Shown here: in pieces, positions 4,566-25,677 of the stretch | Numbering within the stretch: the first letter of the stretch is position 1 | How the letters are laid out: every line of letters begins with the position of its first letter | Origin: a virus | IMG/VR virus record: IMGVR_UViG_3300001450_000105 | Coordinates: 1-26,206 of that record | DNA: 26,206 nt | Strand: one strand, 5' to 3' | Notes under the pieces: model-generated | What the model was told of the DNA's origin: nothing | Seen by the model: only the letters and a program-made list of their open reading frames with translations | The model's database searches: none | Made by a program: the position numbers and the translations under genes

Positions 4566-5033
4566 TCACGGTTTTCTTCTTAAATTGTTATAACTTTGTT
4601 GTGCATTTTTAGGAACAGGTGTAGGTTTTTTACCGCCATCCATTGCTTCTAGTGAGCCTTTATAATTAATACCTTCGGTTAATTTCTTAAATGGGTTTAA
4701 ATCCATACTTTCAATATTGTCGTCTAATTTAAAACTACCTTGACCTCTTCTTTTTCTACCTGAAAATAATCCTAATACTTGGGCAACTGCGTTTTTAACC
4801 GCATTTCCCTTATCTACAGGTGTAATTAGTGCCTCTTTTACTTCACCTGTTTTTTCTTCAACTATTGCTAATTTCATATGAGAACCTGTTTTTGACTTTT
4901 TACTTTTACTTCTGTTAATTGTATAGCCTTTACTATTCAATTCTTTTTCAAATTTTTTCATAAAAGACCTACCCCTAGAAGGGCCTTTAATTACAGACCA
5001 CCAACTATCCAAAGGAACCCATTCTTCACTCAT
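4566..5033 (-). CDS. Basic head-tail joining protein candidate with internal W-x2-I-K motif
   Basis: 155 aa starting MSEEWVPLDSWWSVIKGPSR. I chose ATG 5033 because it directly follows the upstream stop (TAAAATG); an in-frame GTG at 5042 lies inside the upstream gene. Residues 10-40 and 80-100 are strongly basic (GRSFMKKFEKEL, LFSGRKRRGQGSF), with an unstructured Pro/Asn-rich tail. The order connector, this protein, small helical protein, terminator, tail tube suggests an HK97-gp10-like neck component, although no clear family motif is present. SWWSVIKGP near residues 10-18 closely resembles the N-terminal tag of the accessory proteins at 12.6-16.6 kb, here preceded by about 9 residues. Confidence 0.55.
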   Translation of the reverse strand: MSEEWVPLDSWWSVIKGPSRGRSFMKKFEKELNSKGYTINRSKSKKSKTGSHMKLAIVEEKTGEVKEALITPVDKGNAVKNAVAQVLGLFSGRKRRGQGSFKLDDNIESMDLNPFKKLTEGINYKGSLEAMDGGKKPTPVPKNAQQSYNNLRRKP

Positions 5034-9941: not shown

Positions 9942-11144
9942 TCACACCAAGTCAATAATCTTTCCTTGACCACGGAAGTAAGTACACATAGTTTCAGCAG
10001 CAGTACGGTATAGTCCACGATGTCCTAGTTTACCATGACCAAATACTTCTCCAGTATCCATTCCAGCCTCGAAATATTCAGTAGGCTTTAGAGTACATAG
10101 GAAAAGATGGTCCGTATCTAGAATAAGCATATCACTTAGACCAGCACCGCCATTAGGCATATCCTTAACAGGAATCATTGGAATATCGTGGTATGTTGCA
10201 ACCTTGAATCCCATTTCTCTTCCCTTAACACCTTTAATTCCACCATGAGAAGGTACTACTTCTGCACGACCCATAAATCTTTCTTGTGCTTGTAGAAGTT
10301 CTCCCAAGTTCTGAATAGTATCATATCCAGTTAGAATAACCTTTGGATCTCCACCACGAGCATTCAAGTTTCTTAGTGCAGTATTCAATAGGTTAACAGT
10401 TAGACTTCTATCTGTTCCCGAATTGCTATCTACATAAGACTCCAAATAAGGTGTGTTAGATGTATGGCGAGTTTGTCCGTACAAATTCAAAGGAGTAGCG
10501 GCTCTACCTGCTGCTGTTAGTGCATTCATTTCAGCAAAAGTTGAAACAATCTTATACAAAGATAGCAAAGAGTTACCTTCAGTACCATATCCAGCAGCAT
10601 CCAATTCAACTAGGTCAGTAATAACCATCTTGTTCATTGCTTCAGCATGTGAAACTCCTACTTCTTCTCTGTATGCAGCCATAATATCTCCAATACCATC
10701 ATCCATTCCACCCATCAACTGTGCAATTTCACTTACTTCGTAGGTGTGTGCAATAGTCTTAGGAGATGCATGAAGTATATCGAATGTTGGTGCAATTTCT
10801 GTAATACCTGAAATAGTAGCGTTTTCTGCAACACCACCAAGGTCATCCAAATCTGCAACAGTAAATACATCTGTACCGCCACCAAGAGAACGACTAGTTA
10901 GGATTCTCCATCCACTAGAGTTCCAAGGCTTCTTAGGCAGAATACTTAGTGCATTCATTTCTCGGTTAATAAGTGACCAAACCTTTTGTCCGTAAACTAG
11001 GTTGTAAAGTCCCTTACTTCCAAGAGTCTGTGCGCCATCATGTATAGAATGAATACCAGTAGTAGCCTTCAATAGTTGGTCGCTTCCAGACATTCCATAT
11101 GTCGCTCTTTCTAAATCTTCAATTGTCTTATAATATCCTGTCAT
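9942..11144 (-). CDS. Major capsid protein, HK97 fold
   Basis: 400 aa lying immediately after the protease-scaffold gene, the standard order for HK97-fold capsid genes. The chain shows the expected sequence of elements: an N-terminal helical arm, GQKVWSLINREMNALSILPK, an E-loop-like beta region around WRILTSRSLGGGTDVF, a spine-helix-like stretch (DIMAAYREEVGVSHAEAMNK), A-domain strands and helix (GDPKVILTGYDTIQNL), and a C-terminal strand-rich end with HLFLCTLKPTEYFEAGMDTG. It has no N-terminal delta domain of its own, consistent with the scaffold being part of the protease gene. The start overlaps the end of the upstream gene region by close spacing (TGA then ATTAAATG), with GAGGGTG acting as a possible SD. 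Codon use is slightly richer in C-ending codons than its neighbours, as expected for a highly expressed protein. Confidence 0.9.
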   Translation of the reverse strand: MTGYYKTIEDLERATYGMSGSDQLLKATTGIHSIHDGAQTLGSKGLYNLVYGQKVWSLINREMNALSILPKKPWNSSGWRILTSRSLGGGTDVFTVADLDDLGGVAENATISGITEIAPTFDILHASPKTIAHTYEVSEIAQLMGGMDDGIGDIMAAYREEVGVSHAEAMNKMVITDLVELDAAGYGTEGNSLLSLYKIVSTFAEMNALTAAGRAATPLNLYGQTRHTSNTPYLESYVDSNSGTDRSLTVNLLNTALRNLNARGGDPKVILTGYDTIQNLGELLQAQERFMGRAEVVPSHGGIKGVKGREMGFKVATYHDIPMIPVKDMPNGGAGLSDMLILDTDHLFLCTLKPTEYFEAGMDTGEVFGHGKLGHRGLYRTAAETMCTYFRGQGKIIDLV

Positions 11145-11149
11145 TTAAT

Positions 11150-11776
11150 TCACACCCTCATGTTGTTTGCAAACTCATGTGCTTCTGCCCAAGACATATT
11201 AGCGACATCAACATCAATAGTAGTAGATTCAGTAATTGAATCTGCTGACTTTGCAATTGTTGTTGTTTCCATAGACTTACGTAGTTCTGCTAGTTCGTTC
11301 TTTAGTTCGCTAATTTCACCTTGAGAATCAAATCGAGACTTTGCAATTGCATCTGACTCAACCTTTAATTCGTTAGTATAACGGGACTCGAACTGTTCCT
11401 TAATTAGGTCATATGCTCGTGCCTCTTCTTTTTCAGCCTTGAATTGAGCGTATGCTTTAGCAAGGTTTTCCTCACTCAAGTCGAGAGTAGAAACTTCTTC
11501 TCCCTTTTGCTCAATGAATGTATCGTAATCAAGTGCGTCAACAGCATCGCCAGTTTTTGCTACAGGTTCTTCTTCTTCAGAATAGTCACCCATTTCAATA
11601 TCTTCTTCTGCCATTTCTTCATCCATCATTTCTTCATCCATCATTTCTTCGTCGCCCATCAATTCCATGCTTTCTACTTCTTCCTCGTCTTCCTTCTTAA
11701 CAGTATTAAGATGACCTTTTAGTTCACCCATAACATCGTTAAACTCAGCAAGAGCCTTTTCTATTTCTTCTGACAT
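11150..11776 (-). CDS. Nested in-frame scaffold protein (internal start)
   Basis: Predicted 208-aa product initiated at Met180 of the protease-scaffold gene. A perfect AGGAGGA at 11784-11790 lies 7 nt before this ATG, in the middle of the longer gene and exactly at the boundary between the protease and scaffold domains. This mirrors lambda C/Nu3, where a nested gene makes extra scaffold without protease. It would let the virus make much more scaffold than protease. The start signal is seen; use of the start is inferred. Confidence 0.65.
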   Translation of the reverse strand: MSEEIEKALAEFNDVMGELKGHLNTVKKEDEEEVESMELMGDEEMMDEEMMDEEMAEEDIEMGDYSEEEEPVAKTGDAVDALDYDTFIEQKGEEVSTLDLSEENLAKAYAQFKAEKEEARAYDLIKEQFESRYTNELKVESDAIAKSRFDSQGEISELKNELAELRKSMETTTIAKSADSITESTTIDVDVANMSWAEAHEFANNMRV

Positions 11777-12313
11777 TTTTTTGTCCTCCTTTACAATATT
11801 AAATTTTGCTTCAGGGTTTATTCCCTCTTCACAAATAGTAATTTCATGCAATTCAAGTTTATCAATTTCCTTGTAACTGCCTACATCGGCATCATAACGA
11901 TTAGTTTTACTAATTGCCTGACCTCCAATACTAAAAGAACGCAAATTTCCCCTGCGAATATCTCTCGCAACTTCTTTTGCTTTCTCTATATCACTTCTTA
12001 ACTTTATCACTACAAAAAAACCTGTATCATCAACGCCTGTTTTAAGGACTTTTCCATTGGAATCTGACCATTGGTTAACTACTTCACCAACTTGTACATT
12101 AGAATGGGTAATCATTACATTTCTATAACGATCACCTTTCATAAATTTATTAGCCGCTTCTTTAATTGCGGGTAATGTAATTTTATCATTTTGCTTATCT
12201 ACTACATCTACCGAAGCATATCCAGCAATAACTAAATCCTGTTCAGATTTAAGAATTACAAACTCTCCGCCGTCGGAAATAGACTTGCCAAACATAGGTG
12301 TCTCTATCTGCAT
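11150..12313 (-). CDS. Prohead maturation protease fused to capsid scaffold
   Basis: 387 aa. Residues 1-175 are an HK97/U35-type prohead protease. GYASVDVVDKQNDKI matches the typical opening strand, MITHSN holds the catalytic His (H70), LRSFSIGG holds the nucleophile Ser (S128), and LHEITICEEGINPEAKF matches the conserved Glu (E157) segment. Residues 180-387 are a charged helical scaffold: an acidic Met/Glu/Asp-rich tract at about 215-245 with a repeated MMDEE unit, then coiled coil (EISELKNELAELRKSMETT). The protease cleaves scaffold and capsid components as the head matures. The ATG lacks an SD and lies about 28 nt from a TATA box, suggesting leaderless translation. The scaffold half has its own SD and ATG (see 11150..11776). 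The major capsid gene follows. Confidence 0.88.
   Translation of the reverse strand: MQIETPMFGKSISDGGEFVILKSEQDLVIAGYASVDVVDKQNDKITLPAIKEAANKFMKGDRYRNVMITHSNVQVGEVVNQWSDSNGKVLKTGVDDTGFFVVIKLRSDIEKAKEVARDIRRGNLRSFSIGGQAISKTNRYDADVGSYKEIDKLELHEITICEEGINPEAKFNIVKEDKKMSEEIEKALAEFNDVMGELKGHLNTVKKEDEEEVESMELMGDEEMMDEEMMDEEMAEEDIEMGDYSEEEEPVAKTGDAVDALDYDTFIEQKGEEVSTLDLSEENLAKAYAQFKAEKEEARAYDLIKEQFESRYTNELKVESDAIAKSRFDSQGEISELKNELAELRKSMETTTIAKSADSITESTTIDVDVANMSWAEAHEFANNMRV
11612..11650 (-). repeat. Short tandem repeat in scaffold coding sequence
   Basis: A 15-bp unit (plus strand CATTTCTTCATCCAT) occurs twice in tandem at 11612-11626 and 11627-11641, with a third partial copy. It encodes the MMDEE repeats of the acidic scaffold tract and probably arose by slippage. 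Confidence 0.75.
11784..11790 (-). promoter_or_regulatory. Internal Shine-Dalgarno for nested scaffold
   Basis: The minus strand reads AAAGGAGGACAAAAAAATG. This is the strongest SD in this part of the window and is placed inside the protease-scaffold coding sequence 7 nt before an in-frame ATG. The normal start of the same gene has no SD at all. Confidence 0.7.
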
Positions 12314-12387: not shown

Positions 12388-12588
12388 TCAATCTAAGTTT
12401 CTTCTTAAAATCCTCATAGCCATTGAGTCGGAACGGGTTTTTTCATTCTCATTTTTTTTATCTGTTAAAGTTCTAACTAAAGCCAATGCTTTAGATTTTG
12501 ACGATAATGGTTTTTCGTTAAATTTTTGATTAGTTACTTTATCGAATACATCGTATCCTTGCTTGCCTAATCTTAAATCGTATTTCAT
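12388..12588 (-). CDS. Small basic protein of unknown function
   Basis: 66 aa, Lys/Arg-rich (MKYDLRLGKQGYDVFDKVTN, then SKSKALALVRTLTDKKNENE and a basic end RILRRNLD). It has a short beta-hairpin-like start and a helical remainder. Its ATG overlaps the stop of the preceding tagged gene (ATGA type, 12585-12588), so it is coupled to it. It is the last gene before the protease promoter and one of the few in this cluster without the W-x2-I-K tag. Function unknown; nucleic-acid binding is possible from charge only. Confidence 0.6.
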   Translation of the reverse strand: MKYDLRLGKQGYDVFDKVTNQKFNEKPLSSKSKALALVRTLTDKKNENEKTRSDSMAMRILRRNLD

Positions 12589-12980
12589 TCTTCTTCACCA
12601 ATCCATTGATATTCTTTAGGACTTCTTTTAGTTACTGCTACATAATTTTTATTAGTTCTTAAATAAGTACTAATTGCATTTGTCATAGGCATGTTTTTTA
12701 AAGAAAGGGTAGTCCTACCAAGTGTTTGTCTATTAGAATACAAACCATCTATAATTGCCTTTACACTTCTTTTTTGCCCGTCTTGCATTAAAGTATCTAT
12801 CAAATTCCAATATCTTTTATCACTTCTTTTTCTTTTTTCAATCTTACAACCGCAAGGAGTTTCCTTATCTTCACAAGTTTCACATGGAGGTTTTTCACCA
12901 TATGTAGTATTGTGTAAGGCTGGGGTAAACCCTGCACTTGTACTTAGTGTAGGTTCTTTTATTATATCCCACCAACTCAT
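12585..12980 (-). CDS. Tagged protein with Cys motif and winged-helix domain
   Basis: 131 aa. Residues 1-10 are the shared tag MSWWDIIKEP. Residues 33-45 (CETCEDKETPCGC) hold four Cys (33, 36, 43, 45) that could bind zinc, followed by a basic stretch KRKRSDKR. Residues ~55-128 look like a winged helix: helix RYWNLIDTLMQDG, helices around VKAIIDGLYSNR and AISTYLRTN, and a hairpin YVAVTKRSPKEYQWI. This suggests DNA or protein binding. GGAGGA precedes the ATG, and the gene overlaps its neighbours by 4 nt on both sides. The Cys motif shares CETC and PCG spacing with the tail of the PAP2 protein nearby. Function unknown; the tag suggests it is handled like the other accessory proteins. Confidence 0.65.
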   Translation of the reverse strand: MSWWDIIKEPTLSTSAGFTPALHNTTYGEKPPCETCEDKETPCGCKIEKRKRSDKRYWNLIDTLMQDGQKRSVKAIIDGLYSNRQTLGRTTLSLKNMPMTNAISTYLRTNKNYVAVTKRSPKEYQWIGEEE

Positions 12981-13387
12981 GTTTTATCCTCCGAATATTT
13001 AGGGTTGGGCTTACCAAATAACATATTGGGTATATGCCTCCAAGACTCCTCGTGTTTATAACTATTTACTGCTATATAATTTATAAAACTATCTACTGAA
13101 TCAAATGGTAGTTCTTCTAAATATGGTTCTATTTTACTTTCATTCCACATGAAATGCCCACCATTTGAATAACTATGAAATAGGGGGTTAGGACTAGGTA
13201 CTTCAAATTGTTTAGGAAATTTTTTATATTTTAATCCTAAGCGGGAAGCCATTTGTTTTATTTCCGTGTCTTGTCCTTTATCCCAATCAATAGGAATATA
13301 ACCAATTGCTTTATCAGGATTTGTATTAAACATTCTTTCTATAACTTCAAGGTGATTATCCGGCCCCTTAATTATATCCCACCACAA
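12977..13387 (-). CDS. Tagged protein of unknown function
   Basis: 136 aa starting at TTG 13387 with the tag MWWDIIKGPDN, nearly identical to that of the next gene. After the tag the protein looks globular: VIERMFNTNPDKAIGYIPID, a DKGQDTEIKQMASRLGLKYK segment that could be a nucleotide- or phosphate-binding-like turn, and an aromatic/Ser/Asn-rich middle (PLFHSYSNGGHFMWNESKIE). HSYSNGGHF could place His near an active centre, but I recognise no family. GGAGGA of the following gene lies in its 3' end, and the two overlap by 4 nt. Confidence 0.6.
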   Translation of the reverse strand: MWWDIIKGPDNHLEVIERMFNTNPDKAIGYIPIDWDKGQDTEIKQMASRLGLKYKKFPKQFEVPSPNPLFHSYSNGGHFMWNESKIEPYLEELPFDSVDSFINYIAVNSYKHEESWRHIPNMLFGKPNPKYSEDKT

Positions 13388-13399
13388 TATTTACACAAC

Positions 13400-13618
13400 C
13401 TATTCTGATATTGTTTTAGCCGCTTGTGTACCTGCACCAACAACAAATGCTGCTAGTGGACCCATATTTTCAATATTACTTTCTGTTTCTAATAACTTTT
13501 TTACTCTTTCAATTAATGAAGGTTCACCCATTAGTTTTTCTACTACTAAGTCAATATCTTTTTTCATTGCTTCAGTTAATTTATGTGGTTCATTTTTAAT
13601 AATTTTTTTCCAACCCAT
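13400..13618 (-). CDS. Tagged small helical protein with hydrophobic C-terminus
   Basis: 72 aa. I chose the ATG at 13618 because GGAGAGGG lies about 5 nt upstream and the protein then starts with the shared tag MGWKKIIKNEP; the longer open frame upstream lies inside the PAP2 gene. Residues 12-45 are a charged helix. The end (NMGPLAAFVVGAGTQAAKTI) is hydrophobic and Gly/Ala-rich and could insert in or press on a membrane. Its start region overlaps no other gene end, and the PAP2 gene stops 13 nt upstream. Function unknown. Confidence 0.65.
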   Translation of the reverse strand: MGWKKIIKNEPHKLTEAMKKDIDLVVEKLMGEPSLIERVKKLLETESNIENMGPLAAFVVGAGTQAAKTISE

Positions 13619-13631
13619 TTTACCCTCTCCT

Positions 13632-14462
13632 TTAACATGCCCCACAAGTGGGTTTACAACTTCTTTTAGTTCCTTTAGAAGCATCTGGTCTTCCGCATGG
13701 TTTAGGGCCATTTTTATTATCACATGTTTCACAAGCAATCCAACCTTTTTGAGATTTACTATCTTTAGTTTCTTTACCGCCCCTTCTATTAAACCATCTA
13801 TAAAGAGTATCTTTTATTTTACCCTTTTCAATTTCTGATTTCTTTTCAGATTCTCCCCAATCTTTGACTAATATATTTTGCCAAGATTTATTAATACTTA
13901 AATATTTATCAGCAATTAAATTACCCACTTTTTCACCTGCCTTAATATCACTTGGATAATGGTTTCCCATTTGTACCCTTGATAATGCTATACGCTGGGC
14001 CATATTATTTAAGTCCTTTTGTTTATCAGGATATTTATTACCTAATACTTTTGCTAAAGCATATGCTTCTATTGCGTGACCACTTGGAAAAGAAGGGCTA
14101 TTATCTGTATCAGTTTGAGAATCTATTTCATCTGAAACTTCGTATGGTCTTTTTCTGCCATACTTCATTTTAAGTTTAATCGTGTGTATGTCTATGTCTT
14201 TAATAAAATCTTCCCAATCTGATTTATCTTCACCTACAATTTTTATTAACATTTTGTTATTATTTTTATCTAGATCTCTTTTTTCTTTTTCAGACAATTT
14301 ACTATTTTTGTACATTTGGGTTACTTTTGTTATTTCATTATCGGGATATGTTAATTCGGGAAAGTCAACTTCAAAGGAAGGTGTGGATTCAAATAACTTT
14401 TGCTTACTTTTAGGTAATTTTTTGACCCACATAGAATCTTCCTTGAGAATAAGTTTCCACAT
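13632..14462 (-). CDS. Soluble PAP2-type phosphatase with N-terminal tag and Cys-rich tail
   Basis: 276 aa from ATG 14462, which gives the tag MWKLILKED; a GTG three codons earlier overlaps the upstream stop. All three PAP2 signature motifs are present: K-x6-RP (K98...R105-P106), PSFPSGHA (123-130, H129) and SR-x5-H-x3-D (S161-R162, H168, D172). This superfamily dephosphorylates lipid phosphates or other phosphoesters. No membrane spans are seen, so it resembles the soluble acid-phosphatase/haloperoxidase branch. Residues 193-203 (SWQNILVKDWG) repeat the tag internally. They are followed by a basic linker and a Cys-rich end (C244, C247, C256, C269, C273, C276) like small marine-virus proteins. 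The gene looks like a fusion of a tagged phosphatase and a tagged Cys-rich protein. No SD is seen, so translation is probably coupled to the upstream stop. Confidence 0.85.
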   Translation of the reverse strand: MWKLILKEDSMWVKKLPKSKQKLFESTPSFEVDFPELTYPDNEITKVTQMYKNSKLSEKEKRDLDKNNNKMLIKIVGEDKSDWEDFIKDIDIHTIKLKMKYGRKRPYEVSDEIDSQTDTDNSPSFPSGHAIEAYALAKVLGNKYPDKQKDLNNMAQRIALSRVQMGNHYPSDIKAGEKVGNLIADKYLSINKSWQNILVKDWGESEKKSEIEKGKIKDTLYRWFNRRGGKETKDSKSQKGWIACETCDNKNGPKPCGRPDASKGTKRSCKPTCGAC

Positions 14463-14467
14463 AATAA

Positions 14468-14635
14468 TCACTTTTTTGATTTACCGTAATTAGCGCAACC
14501 TTTTTTTCTGCATTGTACTACTCTTCCTGATGCGTAAGCAGAAGGCCAAACTTTAGCACCTGCCTTTACTTTTTTAGCACAACAATCAAGTGGCTTTTTC
14601 TTAGCCTTTTTCTTTTTAAGAATATCTTGCCACAT
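14468..14635 (-). CDS. 55-aa tagged Lys/Cys-rich mini-protein
   Basis: ATG 14635 to TGA 14468-14470. The sequence begins MWQDILKKKKAKKKPLDCCA, continues with KVWPSAYASGRVVQCRK and ends with a Lys/Gly/Asn-rich tail. The first seven residues are the shared tag. It is extremely basic, with four Cys (18, 19, 42, 47). The VWPSAYASG...CRK...AN segment is one I recall from many marine phage mini-proteins, although I know no assigned function. It starts 2 nt after the stop of the preceding tagged gene (TGGTAATTATG) and stops 5 nt before the PAP2 start. Its codons are the AT-rich ones used by its neighbours. A DNA-condensing or DNA-binding virion component is a reasonable guess. Confidence 0.75.
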   Translation of the reverse strand: MWQDILKKKKAKKKPLDCCAKKVKAGAKVWPSAYASGRVVQCRKKGCANYGKSKK

Positions 14636-14637
14636 AA

Positions 14638-14907
14638 TTACCAATCCCTACAAGCCATACAACGGGGTGAATAATCTCCACCTTTACATGTAGAACATTT
14701 ATGTCTTGCTCTAAATGATTTCTTTCTTTTAGTATTTCCTCGCTTACCTGTAACAGAAACACCTTTTTGACCCCAATGTACTTTTTTGTATTTGCCTCTT
14801 TTCTTTGCTGGAACACAAGCCATCCACTTCTTACCTTTACGGTCTGAACTTGTTTTCTTAGTTCGTCTTTTACAACCGGCTTTAACTAATGTATCTTCCC
14901 AACCCAT
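14638..14907 (-). CDS. Tagged basic zinc-ribbon-like small protein
   Basis: 89 aa with GGAGGAAG 5 nt before ATG. Residues 1-10 are a variant of the shared tag (MGWEDTLVKAG). The middle is strongly basic (CKRRTKKTSSDRKGKKWMAC, KYKKVHWGQKGVSVTGKRGN). The end, KSFRARHKCSTCKGGDYSPR plus CMACRDW, carries two CxxC pairs (C71/C74 and C83/C86) that could bind zinc. The SFRARH...C...C...W pattern is one I recall from marine tailed-phage small proteins of unknown function. High charge and Cys pairs suggest nucleic-acid binding, possibly inside the virion. A 66-codon frame overlapping its 3' half is a shadow. Confidence 0.75.
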   Translation of the reverse strand: MGWEDTLVKAGCKRRTKKTSSDRKGKKWMACVPAKKRGKYKKVHWGQKGVSVTGKRGNTKRKKSFRARHKCSTCKGGDYSPRCMACRDW

Positions 14908-14948
14908 TATTCTTCCTCCATTAATTTTTTTCCAAAATTTTATTTTTC

Positions 14949-15290
14949 TTAGATAAAATGATACTCTCTCACTGCTCTCCTTCCAAGACTGTTTCCTTTA
15001 TTATCAAAAATAATTTTACTTTGTATTTTTACTTCTAGTAAATTACTTTTATTCAATATTTTAGTAACAATACTTCTAATACGGTTTCCGCCTACCCTCC
15101 CCCCGCCGCCAAGCGGATGAGAAGTGTGTTTCGTAGAATAACTCTGCCTTATTTCTTCTTGTAGTTGTAAATATTCATCTGCACTTAAAACCTCACCTTT
15201 CATTTCTTTACCTTTGGCTAAAACAATCTCTTTAAGAAAATCATAATTTATTCGCTTTGCTGCGCCCCTTTTTAATATTTCTTCCCACAT
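14949..15290 (-). CDS. Tagged small protein of unknown function
   Basis: 113 aa from ATG 15290, giving the tag MWEEILKRGAA; an in-frame TTG three codons upstream is less likely. Residues 15-55 are helical (FLKEIVLAKGKEMKGEVLSA). A Gly-rich loop follows (HPLGGGGRVGGNRIR, about 63-77), then a basic strand/helix segment (VTKILNKSNLLEVKIQSKII). The loop could touch phosphate, but I recognise no family. There is only a weak SD (AGGA about 14 nt upstream). The frame stays open upstream into the broken gene at 15291-15414. The 41-nt gap after it (14908-14948) holds only AT-rich sequence and the next gene's SD. Confidence 0.6.
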   Translation of the reverse strand: MWEEILKRGAAKRINYDFLKEIVLAKGKEMKGEVLSADEYLQLQEEIRQSYSTKHTSHPLGGGGRVGGNRIRSIVTKILNKSNLLEVKIQSKIIFDNKGNSLGRRAVREYHFI

Positions 15291-15414
15291 AGTAATCAAT
15301 AATCCTTTAACATTGTAGTTACGCCTAGGTAGACCATTTCTTCTAGCGTCTGGTAATACAGTAACTACCCATACATTATAATCCTTTTTGTTTTTTAATA
15401 ATATCGAACCACAT
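15291..15414 (-). pseudogene. Frameshifted tagged gene (start MWFDIIK, body in +1 frame)
   Basis: ATG 15414 opens with the shared tag MWFDIIKKQKG but meets TAA after 12 codons (15376-15378). Read one base later, from the A5 run at 15385-15389, the frame runs on without a stop as DYNVWVVTVLPDARRNGLPR plus RNYNVKGLL. This is plausible protein with the AT-rich codons typical of the window, and the frame continues into the next gene (MWEEILK, 15290). The +1 frame has no ATG, GTG or TTG until 15299. The simplest reading is a one-base insertion in a homopolymer, either real or an assembly error. Repairing it would give either a short tagged gene or one tagged protein fused to the next. Confidence 0.6.
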
Positions 15415-15419
15415 AATTA

Positions 15420-16250
15420 TCACACAATTGATATATTTGTTTCATTCCATTCGGAGTCCATTCTCCAACCATCAATATCAACCCAAAAAGTAAGACATAC
15501 ATCGTAATTCCCACTCGGTATATTTGTCTTTGTAAATACTTTTACATCACCCGCACTACCTGTTATATTGTAGCCAGCAAAATTACTATAATAATAAGTT
15601 TGATTTTCAGTCCATTTAATAGCAACATCTATTTCTACATATTGTTCTTCTTCACAAGACCAATCAGCATCCCAATAAATTTTCATATCTGTTGTATTAT
15701 TTACTGTTTCTAATTTTACTTCAGGATTATAAAAGGAACCTGTACAGTTATCTTCCGGTTCTTCATATTCACAAGACCCATCATCATTAGTAGCCGCATC
15801 ATTATAATTTATAGCAGTTGAATTTGTACAACCCCAAACTTCATCTTCATAATAACATGAACCATCATCTTCATTTGCGTAATCGTCATAGTTAATTGCA
15901 TCCCAATCTGTACATCCCCAATACATTTCCCCATCCATATTATTTTCATCTTCCCAAAATGGTTCTTCAGAACCAGCAGGTGTTAAATCTATTATACCTC
16001 CTAACTCAAGCCCACTCCCCGCTACAAGTATTAGTATAGGAATAAGGGCAGTTAATAACTTGTGGGTTTTACCTGCCATTTCTGTTGCTTTATCTAGTGC
16101 TGAAGTATTCTCTTTTATAGCATTTGAATTATTTAATTTACCATCATCTAATAGATCTGCTATAACATCACCTTTACTACGACCTGTTAATTCAGCAATT
16201 TCTTCTGCATTTTCTAACGATGCTTGTATATCGGGTGATGTATCAGCCAT
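15420..16250 (-). CDS. Membrane-anchored surface protein with GCT...DDGSC repeats
   Basis: 276 aa from ATG 16250 (GTGGGG 5-6 nt upstream; the GTG at 16262 is part of that signal). Residues 1-63 are hydrophilic and helical. Residues ~66-87 (LLTALIPILILVAGSGLELG) are a single membrane span, followed by an acidic ectodomain. Two repeats at 111-133 and 139-162 share WGCT-x3-AINY-x5-A-x-DDGSC-x-Y. I recall this repeat from secreted proteins of marine Bacteroidetes and Marine Group II archaea. The remaining ectodomain is beta-rich. Eight N-x-S/T sequons (N143, 168, 184, 185, 216, 228, 269, 272) suggest glycosylation after export. It could be a surface protein made in the infected cell or an envelope/tail-associated adhesin. 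It is the only gene of this cluster lacking the tag apart from 12388..12588. Confidence 0.7.
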   Translation of the reverse strand: MADTSPDIQASLENAEEIAELTGRSKGDVIADLLDDGKLNNSNAIKENTSALDKATEMAGKTHKLLTALIPILILVAGSGLELGGIIDLTPAGSEEPFWEDENNMDGEMYWGCTDWDAINYDDYANEDDGSCYYEDEVWGCTNSTAINYNDAATNDDGSCEYEEPEDNCTGSFYNPEVKLETVNNTTDMKIYWDADWSCEEEQYVEIDVAIKWTENQTYYYSNFAGYNITGSAGDVKVFTKTNIPSGNYDVCLTFWVDIDGWRMDSEWNETNISIV

Positions 16251-16305
16251 GTATTTCCCCACTTATTATTTATGTTTATTAATCTATCTCCATTTTGGGT
16301 AATAA

Positions 16306-16644
16306 TTACCAAGGGCCATAATTACCTGAAGTTAAGGCCTCTTTTGCTGCTTCTTCATAACTATATTTTTTTTCATTAGTTACATTGCCTATTCTTTTAT
16401 AAAAATCATAAGGAAATTTATAATTATCATTATGTTTTAATCTTTCAGTATCTATTACTGTGTCTCCATCTAAAATAAAAGCATGACCATAAACTTGTCC
16501 TTCAACATTTCCACCCGTTCCGGTAACATCTGCATGTACAAGAATTAAATTTGTTTCAAAACCATTTGACATATAATCTTCAGTTAAATAATTAAAAGCA
16601 GTTTGATAACATGTACCTGCTTTTTGTATATTTGACCAATCCAT
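16306..16644 (-). CDS. Tagged papain-like Cys/His peptidase or transpeptidase candidate
   Basis: 112 aa starting with the shared tag MDWSNIQKAG. It is followed by a probable nucleophile (TCYQTAFNYL, C12 at a helix start), a strand with LILVHADVTG (H37), and the active-site-like VYGHAFILDGDTVIDTER (H54, D65). Cys at a helix start, then His, then Asp on strands is the order of papain-fold (NlpC/transglutaminase-like) enzymes. Similar short NC...LVHG...HAW proteins occur in tailed viruses as I recall them. Such an enzyme might cut a cell-surface polymer or a virion protein. It starts 2 nt after the ligase stop. The 55-nt gap after it (16251-16305) holds only AT-rich sequence and the SD of the next gene. 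Confidence 0.6.
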   Translation of the reverse strand: MDWSNIQKAGTCYQTAFNYLTEDYMSNGFETNLILVHADVTGTGGNVEGQVYGHAFILDGDTVIDTERLKHNDNYKFPYDFYKRIGNVTNEKKYSYEEAAKEALTSGNYGPW

Positions 16645-16645
16645 A

Positions 16646-18700
16646 TTACCACTTTAGCCCTGAATGTTCATCCTCGTTTATATTTAATAAACCTTTGTCA
16701 CTAGATTCAGGGGTAGGTTTTGTTTCATAGCCTGTCCAAACAAGCCACATTTTTTTATCTTTAACGGGTAAAACACGGAAATGCATTTTACCTTTAGTTT
16801 CAGGTCCGTTTAAAATATACTCATGGTAGCCATTTCTATTAGCACCAAAAATTAAACCTCCCCTTTCTAATAATTTTTCCTTGTCAGGTTTATTATCAAC
16901 TAACGCTGGATATTTACCTGCTTCCCCTAATAAATCATATATTTCTTCTTCATTGTCTACTTTAATATGCCAAGACATTTCATTATTATCATATTTAATA
17001 ACAAAATTAAGTGTCTTATCTTCTCTTTGCCACAATTCAAACTTACCTTTTGGTTTATTTTCCGCCTTATTAATAACTACATCATCAAAAGAAAACATTT
17101 TATTTCTTTTATCATAAATAATTCCATATGTTTCCCCGCCCTTTTTTAACCTTTGTAATATTTTACCTTGTGGGTTATTACCGCCAAATAATCTATTGGT
17201 TAAATCCTTATCGTGTTCTGTAATTTTCTTACTTAATGATTCTATATTAGCAGGACCATCTCTTAATACTTGTTGAATGTAAGTAAAAAATCTACCATTG
17301 TCTTTTCCATAAGCAACTCGCAATTCGTCTTTCCAAATATCTATATCTAGTTGAGCATTCTTAGCCATTAAATTGTTATCCGCAAAGCCGTAAAAAGTAA
17401 AGCCTTCTAAATCTAACTCACCTTCAAATTTAGCCAATCCATGTACTCCGTCTGTAATTGTATAGGATTTTTTCAATGCTTCTATTGTATAATCTTCTAA
17501 ACTCTTTTTACCATCCTTTGTTAAAAATTGTAAAGTAACTAATTTATCCGGCTGTGTAGTTTCTGGCTTTTCTATAACCTTTGCGTTATACAAACTATAT
17601 CCTTTCTTTTCATTACCTTGTACTTCGTCTACCTTCACTCTAATAATATCACTAACATTTGCTTGTATTTGTGTATTAGTAGTTTTTCCCACAAACATAT
17701 AATGTTCATTTTCTAACTCTTGTACTTTTTTAGAATCTTCGTCTACCGGACCAATACCCATTTTATAATTAAAAGTATCATCTTTATTTTCTTTAATTTC
17801 TAAAACTACTACATCTAAGTCTACAAATTTTTTCCATTTAATCCACTTAGGATTTTTCTTTTTACCTATAATATATGAGGACTTAGCATCTTTAATTACT
17901 ACACCTTCACTTGTAGGATTATTCATTATTTCCATAGCGTATTCTTCAATTTCTTTTAACGAATCAGCATCTCTTGTATTAGATTTATTAGGAAATACTA
18001 AGTATTCATCTGACTGACTTGCAAAGTTTTGCATAAGTAATTGTAGTCTTTCTTCTAATTTTTGACCAATTACCGAATCATCTTCAAAGTACATTATATC
18101 AAAAATATATATTTTTATTTCTCCTTCACTTTCTATGCCTTTTTTATTAATATGTGCTAAAGTATCTGCTCTAATTAAAGGCTCATTACCTTTATGTAAA
18201 ATTGCTTCACCGTCTAAAATACAATTAGGAAACTCTCTTTTTTCTAATATCTTTACTGCTTTACTCATCTTACTAGTAATATCATTACCGTTAAAAGAAT
18301 AAATAGTAACCTTGTTATCAAACTTATGTAACTGCACACGAAGTCCATCATATTTTTCTTGAACTACATACTCCCCAGTAAAACCTTTAATTTCATTTAT
18401 ATCATCTATTTCAAAAATACGATACATAGGTTTATTAGGTACAATAAATTTATTTTCTTTATCTTCTTTAACTAAAGGACTAGGTAAAGTTTTACCTGAA
18501 ATAAGTCTATAAAGTTGATTAGCCTTTTTATTATCTACATTTAAAGTTTTATCTGAATATAAAATACTTGTATCTATATTTGGGAAAGCCGCTTTAATTT
18601 GAGGATCTTCAAGATATTCCCTTAATTGAATTACTAGTTTTTCCCAATCTTGTCTAGCATCGGGGTTATCCATAGCATGTAAATACTTAGAACCCATCAT
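16646..18700 (-). CDS. ATP-dependent DNA ligase with extra C-terminal domains
   Basis: 684 aa from ATG 18700. The nucleotidyltransferase core has every ligase motif: I, QEKYDGLR with adenylated K116; III, LDGEA (162-166); IIIa, IYIFDIMYF (about 197-205); IV, EGVVIK (265-270); V, WIKWKK (286-291). An OB-like domain follows (~295-395). Residues ~470-560 look like a winged helix (FFTYIQQVLRDGPANIESLS). Residues ~565-665 are beta-rich with WHIKV, GYHEYILNGPETKGKMHFRV and MWLVWTGYE, faintly like a LigD 3'-phosphoesterase domain; that last point is weak. It seals DNA nicks using ATP. Its place in the head-gene block is unusual and hints at a role in packaging, genome repair or circularisation after entry. 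The frame stays open 27 codons upstream without a standard start, so the true start may be at a non-AUG codon near 18760. Confidence 0.88.
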   Translation of the reverse strand: MMGSKYLHAMDNPDARQDWEKLVIQLREYLEDPQIKAAFPNIDTSILYSDKTLNVDNKKANQLYRLISGKTLPSPLVKEDKENKFIVPNKPMYRIFEIDDINEIKGFTGEYVVQEKYDGLRVQLHKFDNKVTIYSFNGNDITSKMSKAVKILEKREFPNCILDGEAILHKGNEPLIRADTLAHINKKGIESEGEIKIYIFDIMYFEDDSVIGQKLEERLQLLMQNFASQSDEYLVFPNKSNTRDADSLKEIEEYAMEIMNNPTSEGVVIKDAKSSYIIGKKKNPKWIKWKKFVDLDVVVLEIKENKDDTFNYKMGIGPVDEDSKKVQELENEHYMFVGKTTNTQIQANVSDIIRVKVDEVQGNEKKGYSLYNAKVIEKPETTQPDKLVTLQFLTKDGKKSLEDYTIEALKKSYTITDGVHGLAKFEGELDLEGFTFYGFADNNLMAKNAQLDIDIWKDELRVAYGKDNGRFFTYIQQVLRDGPANIESLSKKITEHDKDLTNRLFGGNNPQGKILQRLKKGGETYGIIYDKRNKMFSFDDVVINKAENKPKGKFELWQREDKTLNFVIKYDNNEMSWHIKVDNEEEIYDLLGEAGKYPALVDNKPDKEKLLERGGLIFGANRNGYHEYILNGPETKGKMHFRVLPVKDKKMWLVWTGYETKPTPESSDKGLLNINEDEHSGLKW

Positions 18701-19183: not shown

Positions 19184-19417
19184 TTACTCACCTGTTATTC
19201 CTCGAACCATTTCGTCTAATTGACTCCAATCCATTTTTGAAATAGTATTAGAATCAGGGGCAGATGAAGAAGCCCTATTGGGTCTTACACCTTCTACTTT
19301 AACTAATCCTGACTTCATCAAAATGTTATCTTGGTCATAAACATATTTTTCTAATTCCTGTACTCGCTCTACTAACATTTTTAACAATAATGTTAAATCT
19401 CCATATTCTTCAGTCAT
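19184..19417 (-). CDS. Small coiled-coil protein
   Basis: 77 aa. Residues 4-35 (LTLLLKMLVERVQELEKYVY) are a heptad-like coiled coil. A disordered Ser/Pro/Ala linker follows, then KMDWSQLDEMVRG at the C-terminus, which loosely resembles the W-x2-I tag seen farther along. The start overlaps the previous stop (ATGA). It is probably an oligomeric accessory structural factor; no family is recognised. Confidence 0.6.
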   Translation of the reverse strand: MTEEYGDLTLLLKMLVERVQELEKYVYDQDNILMKSGLVKVEGVRPNRASSSAPDSNTISKMDWSQLDEMVRGITGE

Positions 19418-21051
19418 TCTTCTTCATCCTCCGGATATACTTTTTCCCTTAATTTTCTATATAAATTTTCGTACTTTTTTCTTAATGAAGCGGCTACTTT
19501 AATCATTTTAAGATTCTCTTCTTCTAGCCCTTCTATCTCGCCTGTATTACCTTCTACTTGGTCAAGTATATTTATAAGTTTTCCTAATTTTAAATATTCT
19601 TCCCCGAAATATTCGGTAGGGTCAGCATCTTGTAGGTAGGTTTTAACCTTCCTTCGTTGTTTTGAATTTAATTCTTCTAAAGCCTTTTTGAGTTCTTCGG
19701 CTTTACCTAAAAGGTTTTGTCTGTATGTAGTGTCTTCAACAACATATGATTGTTTTGGTTTTTCTTTTCTTAATAGTATTTTATAAGGCAATTTACTAAG
19801 AATAGCCCTAAGCATAAAATACCCATAAGTTTTATCATTAACAGGTTCATCTAAAAATTTAATAACTTTATCCCTTAATGATACATCTTCTATTTCGGGT
19901 CTTTGGACTATTATAGTGCCTAATTCTTGTAGGCTAAAATTATTTTTTAAATCTAAATCTTTTAGTAAATTTTTATTTATAGTTTTTAGTTTAACTTTGT
20001 CTAATACAGTATCAACTTCTACATTACTTTTAACTGACTGTTTAATGTTGCCTTGCATTTCCCATATATTATCGTAAAAGTCTGAATTATTTTTTCCTTC
20101 TAAAGAACTACCTGATGTTCCTAAAAATAAATCTTCTACTAACTTTAATAAATCAGGTAAAGGTATTGCTGTATAACCATTATTATTTAACCAAGTATTT
20201 ACAGAAGTTTCTAATCTTGGGAAACTATTCGTATTAATATGTTTTTTAAACTCTGTCATACTAACTCTTAAACTTCCACTGGCCTTAGTAAATGGTCTTA
20301 ATTTATTTTCTTCATTATCTTGATAAAAAATTAATTTTTGATTACTTCCTAAATACTCATTAATAATTACAACATTATATCTTACCTTTTGTACAGTTCT
20401 TTTGCCCTTTTTGCTTTTCCTAGCAAGTCTAATAAGTACCTTTCTTAATTCAGGGTCTCCTTCTTCTTTATCGTAATTTGCTTTTATTTCTTCTAATTCT
20501 TCAATAGAATCAAAACCCATATCTTCTCCTGCTAGTAATTTTCCCCAAGCATTTTCGATTTTTTCAGGTGTAGGGTCTTTAATTTCCCTTAACATTATTT
20601 GTACAAATTTAGATTTATCCGTAGGTTTAATATCTTGCCCTTTATATTTAATAGAAGTTTTTTCTTCTATTACTTTTTGTTTAGGTTTAGGTTCAATATC
20701 TAAAGGTCTACTTCTTTCTTCTTCTGTAGTTTCTACAGCCTTTTTATACATTCGTTTAAAATTATCTAAAATTTCAGTATTATTTAAAGTAGTATCTGTA
20801 CCGGCTTCAATTAATTCCACAATTATATTATCTAAATCTAATTCTTCTGTATAATATTCATCTTTTTTACTATTTCTATCTTGCAATATTGAATCTGCTT
20901 CTCTTTTGATTTCCTTGTAAGTTTCTAAATCTGGTACAAAGGTTCCCTCTTTATTTTCATAACCAAAAGGAAAAACATCTTTTTTACCTTCGGTTTGTTG
21001 TTTGACATTTTCTTCATAAATGTCTTGTAGGTCGTCCTTTGCAATTGACAT
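19414..21051 (-). CDS. 545-aa protein of unknown function in the head block
   Basis: I do not recognise a family. It is highly charged and mostly helical, with an acidic/disordered N-terminal ~130 residues, a Lys-rich segment (LARKSKKGKRTVQKVRYNVV) and a strand-containing middle. The C-terminal coiled coil contains LGKAEELKKALEELNSKQRR and LRKKYENLYRKLREKVYPED. There is no membrane span and no obvious catalytic motif. GAGG precedes ATG 21051, and the gene is closely spaced after the small post-portal gene. In general character it resembles the 860-aa protein at 6108..8690, without an alignment I can defend. A large minor head protein or a packaged protein is possible. Confidence 0.7.
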   Translation of the reverse strand: MSIAKDDLQDIYEENVKQQTEGKKDVFPFGYENKEGTFVPDLETYKEIKREADSILQDRNSKKDEYYTEELDLDNIIVELIEAGTDTTLNNTEILDNFKRMYKKAVETTEEERSRPLDIEPKPKQKVIEEKTSIKYKGQDIKPTDKSKFVQIMLREIKDPTPEKIENAWGKLLAGEDMGFDSIEELEEIKANYDKEEGDPELRKVLIRLARKSKKGKRTVQKVRYNVVIINEYLGSNQKLIFYQDNEENKLRPFTKASGSLRVSMTEFKKHINTNSFPRLETSVNTWLNNNGYTAIPLPDLLKLVEDLFLGTSGSSLEGKNNSDFYDNIWEMQGNIKQSVKSNVEVDTVLDKVKLKTINKNLLKDLDLKNNFSLQELGTIIVQRPEIEDVSLRDKVIKFLDEPVNDKTYGYFMLRAILSKLPYKILLRKEKPKQSYVVEDTTYRQNLLGKAEELKKALEELNSKQRRKVKTYLQDADPTEYFGEEYLKLGKLINILDQVEGNTGEIEGLEEENLKMIKVAASLRKKYENLYRKLREKVYPEDEEE

Positions 21052-22892: not shown

Positions 22893-24272
22893 TTATTCCT
22901 CCTTAACTATTGAATCTAATTCATCCATTGTAGTCATTTTACAATTAGTTTTATACTTGGCTATATCTTCCTCATTAATACCGTACTTGTCAAATTCCCA
23001 CTTGTTTCTAGCGTCTTTCCAATTTTCGTACTTAATTAGTTTGAAAATTTCCCCCACTCTATCCTTAGCCCACGGTTGTTTCTTATAGTTCTTTTTAATC
23101 CTAATGGCTTCTAATAGCAATTTACCCTGTTCTTGCTTCATGCGGAGGTGTGGAATACATTTATCCAACAGCGTAATTATATCATCTTGTTTGTAAAAAT
23201 TTAATCTATGTTGACTTCTATTATTTTCCCCTACCTTTTGGTCTAAATGTAGGCGGCCTATTTTCATCTCACCTTCTAGTTCTTGGAAAAATGCTTTACC
23301 CCTATTACCTGTGGCTACCATTCCTACTCTTGGTGAATGTGTTGAGTCCATAGTAATATAACCATCAGAATCAATAAAACCTGCTACATAGGAATAAAGG
23401 TCTTTTTTAATATTATCACTTAGTAGGTAATACTCTCCTTCAACATTTGTTACATCTAATCGTTTTAACATTTTAGATATAGTTTGAGGTGTAGAAGAAT
23501 CGTGATAACCTTTAGGTAAAGTAGAGTGTAACTTATTACTAGAAATTCCTGGCTCATTACATACAGATTTAATTAGTATGTCGTCTAAATTATCCTGTCT
23601 TGATTTTCTAATAGACTGATGATTAATATCTTTTAGTATAGTTCTAATACCCTTTTTAGAAGTCTTAAATATATTATTATACTCACAGTATTCTGCTCCA
23701 TAGTCTAGTTTAGATTTCATAGTATCTGCTTCCCATATATCTTTAAGATGTCCTATGATAATATTCCGTGTCTTACCGTCTTTAATATAGTCTAATTTTC
23801 TAATCATTTTTAAATTAGGAGTCATAGTTTTAAGTGGTTTAGTATAGGGGTTAAGCCAATACACTGACTTAATACAATTATTAAGATATTCCGTGTAGGC
23901 GTTAATTAAATGGTCAACAGTTTTACTAATTTTATCCCTTGCTGTACCTTTTAGTTCACGTCTTAACATTCTTAATTCTTTAGTTATTTCAGGTATAGTT
24001 TTATTATCAATTAGTGGTTCAGTAGGTAGCCCGTTCAACATAGACCTTGCTTCAGATAAATTAATAGAATAAACTTTAGAAATATCTTTAATAATTTCTG
24101 TTTCATCAGCAGACTGATAACCTAACCAATCTTGTAGTTTAATTTGACTAAGTAATTCTTCTTTCCTTTTCTTTGCTTCTTCATCCGCTTTTACTTTTTC
24201 TTCTTCATATTCAGATAATTTCCTACGCAACTCTTCGGTATTTATTTCATCTTCTTTAAAAATTAATTCCAT
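22893..24272 (-). CDS. LAGLIDADG homing-endonuclease-like protein between terminase and portal
   Basis: 459 aa from ATG 24272; GGGAGGTG lies 7-8 nt upstream, so the GTG at 24281 is part of the SD. Residues 1-45 are a charged coiled coil. Residues ~220-285 look like a winged helix (ILIKSVCNEPGISSNKLHST, then ISKMLKRLDVTN and a hairpin). Residues 296-304 (VAGFIDSDG) are a clear LAGLIDADG motif, followed by RVGMVATGNRGKAFFQELEG and KCIPHLRMKQEQGKLLLEAI as in the rest of that fold. Only one motif is visible, so it may work as a homodimer. The Asp residues needed for cleavage are present in the motif. Its start overlaps terminase by 17 nt and its end abuts the portal gene, so it is a full operon member. 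MELIFKED at the start loosely resembles the accessory-protein tag. Confidence 0.75.
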   Translation of the reverse strand: MELIFKEDEINTEELRRKLSEYEEEKVKADEEAKKRKEELLSQIKLQDWLGYQSADETEIIKDISKVYSINLSEARSMLNGLPTEPLIDNKTIPEITKELRMLRRELKGTARDKISKTVDHLINAYTEYLNNCIKSVYWLNPYTKPLKTMTPNLKMIRKLDYIKDGKTRNIIIGHLKDIWEADTMKSKLDYGAEYCEYNNIFKTSKKGIRTILKDINHQSIRKSRQDNLDDILIKSVCNEPGISSNKLHSTLPKGYHDSSTPQTISKMLKRLDVTNVEGEYYLLSDNIKKDLYSYVAGFIDSDGYITMDSTHSPRVGMVATGNRGKAFFQELEGEMKIGRLHLDQKVGENNRSQHRLNFYKQDDIITLLDKCIPHLRMKQEQGKLLLEAIRIKKNYKKQPWAKDRVGEIFKLIKYENWKDARNKWEFDKYGINEEDIAKYKTNCKMTTMDELDSIVKEE

Positions 24273-25677
24273 GTATTCCACCTCCCATATTTGTTCTTGA
24301 CGAGACTAAACTAGTAGCAAATAGACCATCTTCATCAACATCAATAAAGGCATCGTTAAAAGACTTTGTGGCGTAATTAGCCAATGCTAAGGCTATAACG
24401 CAATCATCGTGTGCGCCTAATCCCTCAATTTTACCCTGTGAACTAATACCAAATGCTTCTAACTCTTGTATAATTGCATTACTTACACCTTTAGCGGCAT
24501 CATCAGCATACGGAAATATAATTTTATTATTTTCTAAATTCATTTGTAGGTTAAGGATAATTTCCTCTTTCTTTTTTCTACTCATTGTAAAATCCCTCAC
24601 AGGAAAATCTGAAATATCGCGCAACTCCATACTAAATGATTTAGCAAAGGTGTTAGTTTCAATCATAACTACTTCAGGTTTAAATCTTTCGCACAAATCG
24701 CTAATACGGGTAATATGATTACGGAAATCTACATTCTTTTCTCTAACCATGTGTACGATTTTTTTATTCATATCCTCGTCTACTTCTATTACTAGCATAA
24801 CTGTATAGTCTCCATCTGCTGATAACGAAGGGTCGTAGCCTATATAATACTTCATGTTTTCTCTTCTTCTCCATAATAGTTTTTCTGTTCTATCTTTGGA
24901 TTTATCAATGTGTTCCTTAGCGAATAGCATAGTATTTGACGATATAGGAATACATAGATATTCACGAGTAAATTTAGATGAACCTATTTCCTTTCTTCGT
25001 CTTTCTAATGAATCTAAGTCCCAACGAGAAGACCATAATGCTTCCCCATGTTGATTAATTGCTGGATAACGATTAACACTGTATTGGCTATTTTCTTCTA
25101 ATTCCGCAAATATATCTGTATATGTGAAGGGTGTGCCTACCATTCTTAATGATGCTGTGTGGTGCAAGGTAGGAATCATATCTCCCCAAAACCAATCTGT
25201 AACTCTTTGTATTGCTGCTATTGTAAATTCTTTCATTGGATCGTCAATAATAATTTCTTGAGGGTGAAGTCCACGAATCTGAGAACCTACTGAACGCTCA
25301 AGTATTTCATTACCATTTGTTAATCTCATAGAACCTACCGCCCATCCTGACTTAGGCTTGTATGGTCTTAATGCTGGTATATTTGTAAACATGCGGTCTA
25401 TATCTTTCATGTGTACCATTGTCTGTTTTTGGTTTGAAGAAATGTATAGCATTTGATAAGGTGGTTCTTGAAATATTAATTGGTATACTGCCCATGCGTG
25501 AAAAAATACAGATTTACCGTGGTCCCTAGAACATATAATTACAGTTCTTTGTGTTGAATGTACAAGGTTTAACCATTGTGTGTGAAAGTCTGCCATTTCA
25601 TAGCCTAGTATGTTTTCAAAGAAGTAAGGGAAATTACCCTTAGACATTTTCATGTCCATTTCAGTTAATAGGTCCAT
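24256..25677 (-). CDS. terL: Terminase large subunit
   Basis: 473 aa. The ATPase domain has Walker A CSRDHGKS (49-56), Walker B EIIIDD (141-146, with DD in place of DE) and a coupling motif MVGTP (179-183). The RNase H-like nuclease domain has GYDPSLSADGD (D282), VMIETN (E340) and GLGAHDDCVIAL (D424, D425). This motor cuts concatemers and pumps DNA through the portal. The start is fused to the previous gene (TAATG, 25675-25679). No small-subunit gene is seen in the window; it may lie upstream. The C-terminal tail (DVDEDGLFATSLVSSRTNMG) may contact the portal. Confidence 0.93.
   Translation of the reverse strand: MDLLTEMDMKMSKGNFPYFFENILGYEMADFHTQWLNLVHSTQRTVIICSRDHGKSVFFHAWAVYQLIFQEPPYQMLYISSNQKQTMVHMKDIDRMFTNIPALRPYKPKSGWAVGSMRLTNGNEILERSVGSQIRGLHPQEIIIDDPMKEFTIAAIQRVTDWFWGDMIPTLHHTASLRMVGTPFTYTDIFAELEENSQYSVNRYPAINQHGEALWSSRWDLDSLERRRKEIGSSKFTREYLCIPISSNTMLFAKEHIDKSKDRTEKLLWRRRENMKYYIGYDPSLSADGDYTVMLVIEVDEDMNKKIVHMVREKNVDFRNHITRISDLCERFKPEVVMIETNTFAKSFSMELRDISDFPVRDFTMSRKKKEEIILNLQMNLENNKIIFPYADDAAKGVSNAIIQELEAFGISSQGKIEGLGAHDDCVIALALANYATKSFNDAFIDVDEDGLFATSLVSSRTNMGGGIHGINF

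Follow-up and report, generated by a model that had tools for sequence, protein, structure and literature searches.

The window analysed here is a 26,206-nucleotide stretch of virus DNA (IMG/VR virus record IMGVR_UViG_3300001450_000105, positions 1 to 26,206) that sits in a 36,832-base virus record (G000). A cluster of its genes starts with nearly the same short peptide, the consensus of which is M-S-W-[EK]-[DN]-I-[LI]-K (octapeptide short form MSWxDILK). We find that this peptide is a genuine tag at the protein level, placed at the N-terminus of hundreds of late magrovirus (order Magrovirales) proteins that are otherwise unrelated, and that it also forms the C-terminal end of two proteins, the scaffold fused to the S78 prohead protease and a small core-like protein. 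Comparison of these sequences suggests that the tag mimics the scaffold tail, loads its bearers into the procapsid as cargo and is cut off after Lys8 by the S78 prohead protease, which we consider a probable mechanism.

A protein-level tag on late magrovirus proteins

The consensus was derived from 478 tagged open reading frames (ORFs), with W at residue 3 in 374 of them. After the K conservation ends sharply, column entropy being about 4 bits from the second residue on; since nothing is conserved there, the K-x-G or K-x-P processing region suspected in an earlier sequence-only reading of the window is not general. As K or R at position 8 was built into the search pattern, the 97% of K at this position speaks only for K over R. 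The synonymous codons of Ile, Leu, Lys and Val vary in the tag much as they do in the bodies behind it. Selection therefore acts on the peptide, as that reading had argued.

ORFs were called mechanically. Among 1371 non-overlapping ORFs in the fetched loci, a set that was partly selected by the tag, 478 begin with it, where the internal frequency of the same hexamer predicts about three; in a set chosen by the protease instead, the tagged fraction is 140 of 1226 ORFs. All 14 large protease-chosen records contain tag hits, on a single strand only, and the reversed control pattern gives none. With a looser pattern 20 large records yield 148 matches, on one strand per record throughout, and again none with the reversed pattern. 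The excess over expectation, the restriction to one strand and the empty reversed controls rule out chance as the origin of the tag. Most of the 13 loci fetched via the related capsid protein alone likewise hold tagged ORFs with other bodies.

At the DNA level, the pattern ATGAGYTGGGANGAHATHYTNAAR (MS-W-[DE]-x-I-L-K) occurs in at least 80 stretches in IMG/VR, whereas 257 Gb of cellular genomes contain 8, all of them outside tagged-gene clusters; we reject a cellular origin. The IMG/VR stretches are not all magroviral: L030, L040, L042, L087 and L091, as well as L036, L058 and L065 with one tagged ORF each, resemble chance or another virus, and some regular-expression matches are false, such as an internal Met of a terminase (L033 958). 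A text search of the open-access literature turned up no paper that contains the motif as MSWEDILK, WEDILK or MSWEEILK.

When the tag is removed, the 597 distinct proteins, 34 to 994 residues long, group into 291 body clusters, of which 216 have a single member; this bears out the claim that the bodies are unrelated rather than homologous over their full length. The few recognised bodies are a PAP2 phosphatase, DUF5754, a putative metallopeptidase (DUF6782) and the SAYASG domain. The tag is also found between domains and at extreme C-termini, where it is 4.7-fold enriched relative to internal positions. There are arrays of about eight consecutive tagged paralogues (L122:12473-13123 and neighbours in G006; L024 2201-7969; L073 424-4969), in which a second common segment (e.g. 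ITQSRVKEIEDIDIDIDDDDCLRW, or QxSSR..INLDWDEE..DC) stands behind the tag before the sequences diverge, one member into an 806-residue protein.

Magrovirales are uncultured viruses with genomes of about 90-100 kb that encode PolB and a chaperonin and in which the genes for morphogenesis and those for replication form two blocks transcribed in opposite directions (PMC10768690). Relatives of the window with a 47-85% identical major capsid protein (MCP) show this two-block layout, PolB (6e-40) and Cpn60 (4e-42): in the large ones the late, structural block occupies one strand, and PolB, the chaperonin and the rest the other. The 36.8-kb record of the window is a fragment of the late block. Relatives carry 14-29 tagged ORFs per record. 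Under the strict pattern, 224 of 819 late-strand ORFs in 11 records are tagged versus 0 of 616 on the early strand; the relaxed pattern finds 4 tagged ORFs there. Within the late block the tagged share is 51% upstream of the terminase and 34% from terminase to protease; it drops to 14% from MCP to tail tube and to 4% beyond the tube. The terminase, portal, protease, MCP and tail-tube proteins themselves bear no tag. The cluster had been placed beside the protease, and tagged ORFs do lie near it, but they are not confined there and are densest upstream of the terminase. The S78 protease was found in 42 of 50 tag-bearing records.

Judged by capsid protein and protease, the closest relatives in culture are the Druskaviridae. 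In the three genomes examined (the late halves of HCTV-1 and HVTV-1, and vir519) none of 176 ORFs is tagged, and the proteases end without the MSWxDI scaffold tail. One record of 184,733 bases (G020, the record of L022; L144-L153) holds two differing copies of the whole terminase-to-tail-tube block; either the assembly has fused two related viruses or the genome is an unusual, double one.

The scaffold tail, a candidate processing motif and a proposed role in cargo loading

All window features described here lie on the minus strand. The S78 prohead protease (11150-12313, 387 residues) matches Pfam PF04586 at 6.8e-12, with 46.3 bits against a curated cut-off of 21 for Peptidase_S78, and the PHROG head maturation protease at 2e-18. 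Its active-site candidates H70, S126 and S128 are invariant in the alignment with 23 relatives (A1); the top Foldseek match of its low-confidence model is gp21 (5jbl), a weak one at E 0.028. Behind the protease domain the ORF runs on into a scaffold region, acidic and helical, whose C-terminal end reads M-[SDT]-W-x-[DE]-[IA]-H-x-[LM]-V, the tail in the window being NMSWAEAHEFANNMRV (from M373; 11153-11197); this is the tag peptide again. Only M373 and W375 are invariant in this last stretch, and among 67 distinct proteases the tail M-[SDT]-W-x-[DE]-[IVLA]-[HN] starts with M in 57 and with L in the other 10. A profile search of PDB with the protease-scaffold gave nothing useful, and its AlphaFold2 (AF2) model has a mean predicted local distance difference test (pLDDT) score of 48. 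Given this low confidence we use only the tail helix and the linker: the model predicts a separate short helix at residues 375-385 (pLDDT about 70) after a disordered linker at 352-367.

The second protein with such an end is a small coiled-coil protein of 77 residues (19184-19417) that ends in MDWSQLDEMV (tail 19187-19234). M62 and W64 are invariant (alignment A2), and LMKSG is conserved at 19313-19321. Members of its family are 74-107 residues long, are encoded between the portal and ligase genes wherever this was checked, and share M-[SDT]-W-x-[DE]-[IL]-[HD] with the protease-scaffold ORF; the protease profile alone finds the small protein through this tail at 18 places in other records. 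We compared an eight-column tag profile with 15,560 conserved windows from 77 families, N-termini excluded. The tail of the small protein scored 16.6 bits and the scaffold tail 14.5, with the third match at 7.5. Because the Met of the tag is the start codon, the Met match in the tails is suggestive and not fully independent; a seven-column profile without it, run over 8 families, still places the protease tail first, narrowly (9.6 vs 9.5 bits).

The tag ends in I-L-K, and the same [IL]-x-K motif stands at four points where maturation would be expected. Three are proposed processing sites in the protease-scaffold: I20-L-K22 before the protease domain (12248-12256; I20 and K22 invariant in A1, the motif in 66 of 67 proteases), I173-x-K175 at the boundary of protease and scaffold (11789-11797; 67 of 67, A1) and I353-x-K355 before the tail, in the predicted disordered linker (11249-11257; 67 of 67, A1). 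The fourth is a proposed site in the MCP (SU10_MCP, Pfam 7.2e-8; 9942-11144), LLK at residues 24-26 (11067-11075), which is present in 26 of 26 sequences behind a conserved N-terminal segment and is followed by a length-variable linker. We hypothesise that [IL]-x-K would be the cut rule of the archaeal S78 protease.

In the mechanism that we propose, scaffold tail and cargo tag would dock at one common site within the growing procapsid. The likeliest site is the inner face of the MCP, to which the scaffold tails of tailed viruses generally bind; the portal and the scaffold core are possible alternatives. Late proteins bearing the tag would thereby be held inside the prohead. Cutting after [IL]-x-K, the S78 prohead protease would then remove the tag after Lys8 and in the same way mature protease, scaffold and MCP; released cargo would be loose in the head, ready to be delivered along with the DNA. 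The receptor (most likely the MCP), packaging, cleavage and delivery to the host are what we infer here. Loading is supported by a case in which the domain arrangement changes and the tag is kept: in the window one protein (13632-14462) is arranged as tag, PAP2 domain, a second tag copy (I-N-K followed by SWQNILVK, 13863-13886, alignment A4) and Cys-rich domain, and in L004 two adjacent genes encode the PAP2 domain and the Cys-rich domain separately, both with an N-terminal tag. Also in favour, 12 of 57 tag copies at C-termini or between domains directly follow [ILVM]xK, where 2.3% each would be expected (p 5e-9), as though the cut there fell on the upstream side instead, and the SAYASG domain of a tagged mini-protein of the window belongs, in cyanophages, to proteins annotated as structural or virion protein.

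The sequence-only reading had suggested cargo loading by analogy with T4 capsid targeting, and this is the best-supported explanation, if only in part: the scaffold and coiled-coil tails, the late head-side location and [IL]-x-K agree with it, while the spread of the tagged genes and the C-terminal and internal copies depart from that reading in detail. Whether the tag further amounts to an open modular cargo code we regard as evenly balanced. Under such a code any late protein that gained a copy of the tail, N-terminally, C-terminally or between domains, would be loaded, cut after Lys and injected, and each virus would draw some 15-30 swappable proteins from hundreds of families. Magroviruses are reported to be widespread in surface ocean waters, and no function is known for most of their genes. 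Should the tag prove to be a loading signal, the internal proteins of every such virus could be listed from its sequence alone, hundreds of families would be flagged as candidate injected factors, and a minimal eight-residue peptide would be at hand for loading a capsid with protein cargo. The cut rule, if true, could be tested directly.

Several observations weigh against this reading. Large head-side proteins of the record (538, 831 and 545 residues) have no strict tag. Tail and tag differ at one position, H/N/D in the former and L/I in the latter before the K. The motif is short, and the protease alignment contains 12 conserved [ILVM]xK columns, several of them within the catalytic domain, so that each processing site, taken singly, carries less weight than the tail. 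Of 57 C-terminal or internal tag copies, 45 have no [ILVM]xK upstream. Finally, a Pfam scan of 101 tagged representatives gave 3 matches at E 0.001, one of them likely a false positive, and tells little about the function of the cargo.

Tag and scaffold tail may bind some other shared partner, such as the portal or the packaging site, in which case the tagged proteins would be portal-associated, parts of an ejection conduit, or assembly helpers that leave before maturation. The densest tag block does lie directly upstream of the terminase, and the small tailed protein sits between portal and ligase. However, the diversity of the 14-29 tagged ORFs per record, many of them tiny and basic or Cys-rich, suits cargo better than a conduit, and the MCP N-terminus has the same [IL]-x-K; we consider such a partner unlikely.

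Localisation in the infected cell is harder to reconcile with the data. If late proteins and scaffold used the tag to reach a virus factory or membrane because assembly occurs there, tail proteins, terminase, portal and MCP would need the signal too, yet they are without it; the C-terminal and interdomain copies also tell against it, as does the acidic D/E found at position 5, which is ill-suited to a membrane anchor. The limitation of the tag to late proteins and the short amphipathic helix predicted for the scaffold tail and for the tag of the PAP2 protein speak for such a signal; we think it improbable.

Still less plausible is common ancestry, with the tagged genes as duplicates whose bodies have diverged and the tag as their least-changed part. 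The paralogue arrays of G006, L024 and L073, eight consecutive tagged genes with a second common segment behind the tag, show that duplication does happen. It does not readily account for 291 clusters spanning 34 to 994 residues, for unrelated domains (PAP2, DUF5754, SAYASG) behind the same eight residues, or for the abrupt loss of conservation after residue 8, and a peptide retained while all else is lost is itself under selection. That the tag is a DNA or RNA element (a translation start enhancer, ribosome-binding context or regulatory site) with only the appearance of a peptide is hardly credible: a Shine-Dalgarno-like upstream motif does precede 82% of tagged versus 50% of untagged ORFs, a difference partly due to false untagged ORFs from mechanical calling, but the codons in the tag are free to vary, the C-terminal and internal copies exist, and the scaffold tail is the same peptide.

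Tagged and neighbouring genes of the window

The strict pattern finds 15 tagged ORFs among the 47 late-strand ORFs of the record, in two clusters, one of them outside the window; the relaxed pattern finds 17. The nine tagged starts named in the sequence-only reading between 12585 and 16644 all read as described, eight from ATG and the one at 13387 from TTG, and seven of them carry the shared core, WSNIQK and WEDTLVK being variants. The extent given for the cluster proved too narrow: at the opposite end of the record, beyond the window (G000:25001-36832, L002), are eight further tagged ORFs, starting MSWQDILK, MNWKNTLRK, MSWADILK, MTWFDVLK, MTWFDVVK, MTWFNIIK, MSWQNILK and MSNWWSIIK.

At the low-coordinate end of the window cluster, an ORF of 131 residues (12585-12980, ATG; tag 12957-12980) starts MSWWDIIK-EP and has a relative at L004 8373, MSWWNIIKEPTLTTSPAFTPALYNTTYG. 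It is followed by ORFs of 136 residues (12977-13387, TTG; MWWDIIK-GP, tag 13367-13387) and 72 residues (13400-13618, ATG; MGWKKIIK-NE, tag 13595-13618). The PAP2-superfamily protein with its Cys-rich C-terminal domain (13632-14462) has 276 residues from ATG and starts MWKLILK-ED (tag 14442-14462). Its PAP2 label holds up: the Pfam match is at 5.6e-12, and the active-site motifs K..RP, PSGH and SR..H..D are all invariant in 7 relatives (A4). The AF2 model of this protein has pLDDT above 90 across much of residues 30-190 and places tag residues 1-9 (pLDDT below 50, about 45) outside the well-folded core.

Two tagged mini-proteins come next. The first (14468-14635, ATG, 55 residues) starts MWQDILK-KK and has a SAYASG domain, which in cyanophages occurs in a protein that some depositors label structural or virion protein and whose gene lies between gp16 and gp17. 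The second (14638-14907, ATG, 89 residues) has the variant tag MGWEDTLVK before DUF5754 (PF19058, 2.1e-6), and its relative in L005 has the canonical MGWEDILKRK. The SAYASG mini-protein (14468-14635) and, judged by eye, the Cys-rich GW..C domain resemble parts of one cyanophage protein (T4-GC_119; L233-L238), a likeness that suggests domain exchange between marine archaeal viruses and cyanophages.

The remaining tagged ORFs of the cluster are one of 113 residues (14949-15290, ATG; MWEEILK-RG), a truncated one of only 12 codons (15376-15414, ATG; MWFDIIKKQKGL, starting MWFDIIKKQ), which has an intact 118-residue relative at L003 7473-7829, and one of 112 residues (16306-16644, ATG) with the variant tag MDWSNIQK, the L003 orthologue of which (63% identical) has the canonical MNWEDILK. 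Labels of Cys/His peptidase and winged helix given to two of the bodies went unconfirmed: 16306-16644 has no Pfam match and 12585-12980 a non-significant one only. The Cys/His protein has one clear relative only. A further, probable tagged ORF (4566-5012) has 148 residues if it starts at TTG with MDSWWSVIK-GP; its start codon is uncertain, and from an alternative GTG at 5042 the tag would be internal.

Within the tagged cluster stands an untagged ORF of 280 residues (15420-16262), in which a hydrophobic segment is accompanied by two repeats rich in Asp and Cys (GCTDWDAINYDDYANEDDGSCYY / GCTNSTAINYNDAATNDDGSCEY). Another untagged ORF, of 545 residues (19414-21051), is related to a tagged protein of 807 residues (L006 3194-5617); gain or loss of the tag is therefore possible within one family. 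An ATP-dependent DNA ligase (16646-18700) lies in the head-gene block between portal and protease, as mapped in relatives, apart from the replication genes, which occupy the other strand. Between terminase and portal is an ORF of 462 residues (22893-24281) with no Pfam match, LAGLIDADG-like by eye, the position of which is conserved in relatives.

Comparison with known systems

In T4 the capsid-targeting sequence (CTS) has 10 residues, with targeting at residues 4 and 7, processing at residues 8 and 10 and the cut motif L/I-x-E (PMC9026906). It is found on the internal proteins IPI-III and Alt, the protease being gp21, and Alt is processed at both termini (PMC9026906, PMC7697877). The magrovirus tag is similar in being an N-terminal peptide of about ten residues on unrelated, fast-evolving proteins, internal if our reading is right, with putative targeting residues first and processing last, in having a hydrophobic-x-charged candidate cut motif, and in the gp21-related (S78) prohead protease encoded nearby. 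Unlike the CTS, it reads MSWxDILK and ends in K (I-[LI]-K, with K in 97%), not in the E of L/I-x-E; it is found on 14-29 ORFs per record rather than on about four proteins; and it also occurs at C-termini and between domains and matches the tail of a protease-scaffold fusion, in viruses of archaea for which packaging is inferred. By analogy the tag appears to work like the CTS, yet neither its sequence nor its cut motif makes it a member of that family.

The N-terminal 30 residues of P1 DarB carry mCherry into virions (PMC9024508), an N-terminal signal directing proteins into the head such as the magrovirus tag may be. A consensus among the N-termini of the P1 Dar proteins was not found in that study (PMC9024508), whereas in magroviruses one consensus is found on hundreds of proteins. 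In phiKZ-like jumbo phages (SPN3US), as proposed here, a single prohead protease acts on many different head proteins and recognises a short motif in them (PMC9026906). Theirs, however, is cut after Glu. We know of no common eight-residue N-terminal tag in these phages.

HK97 gp4, which we take to be the type of the Peptidase_S78 family, belongs to the same protease family by Pfam. Its cleavage site in gp5 is K103/S104, a cut after Lys like the one that we propose (PMC10275583). The HK97 scaffold is the delta domain of the MCP, whereas the magrovirus scaffold is fused behind the protease and the tags are carried by the putative cargo.

The herpesvirus protease-scaffold (UL26) and the phage P22 scaffold bind the capsid protein through a short C-terminal helix, and in P22-based nanocages cargo fused to the scaffold tail gets encapsidated. 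The magrovirus scaffold likewise has a conserved C-terminal helix after a flexible linker, with a putative role in capsid binding. In P22 and herpesvirus systems the fusion of cargo to the tail is engineered; in magroviruses, if our reading of the tag holds, it is natural and N-terminal on the cargo, and would be a concrete case of cargo loading through mimicry of a scaffold tail.

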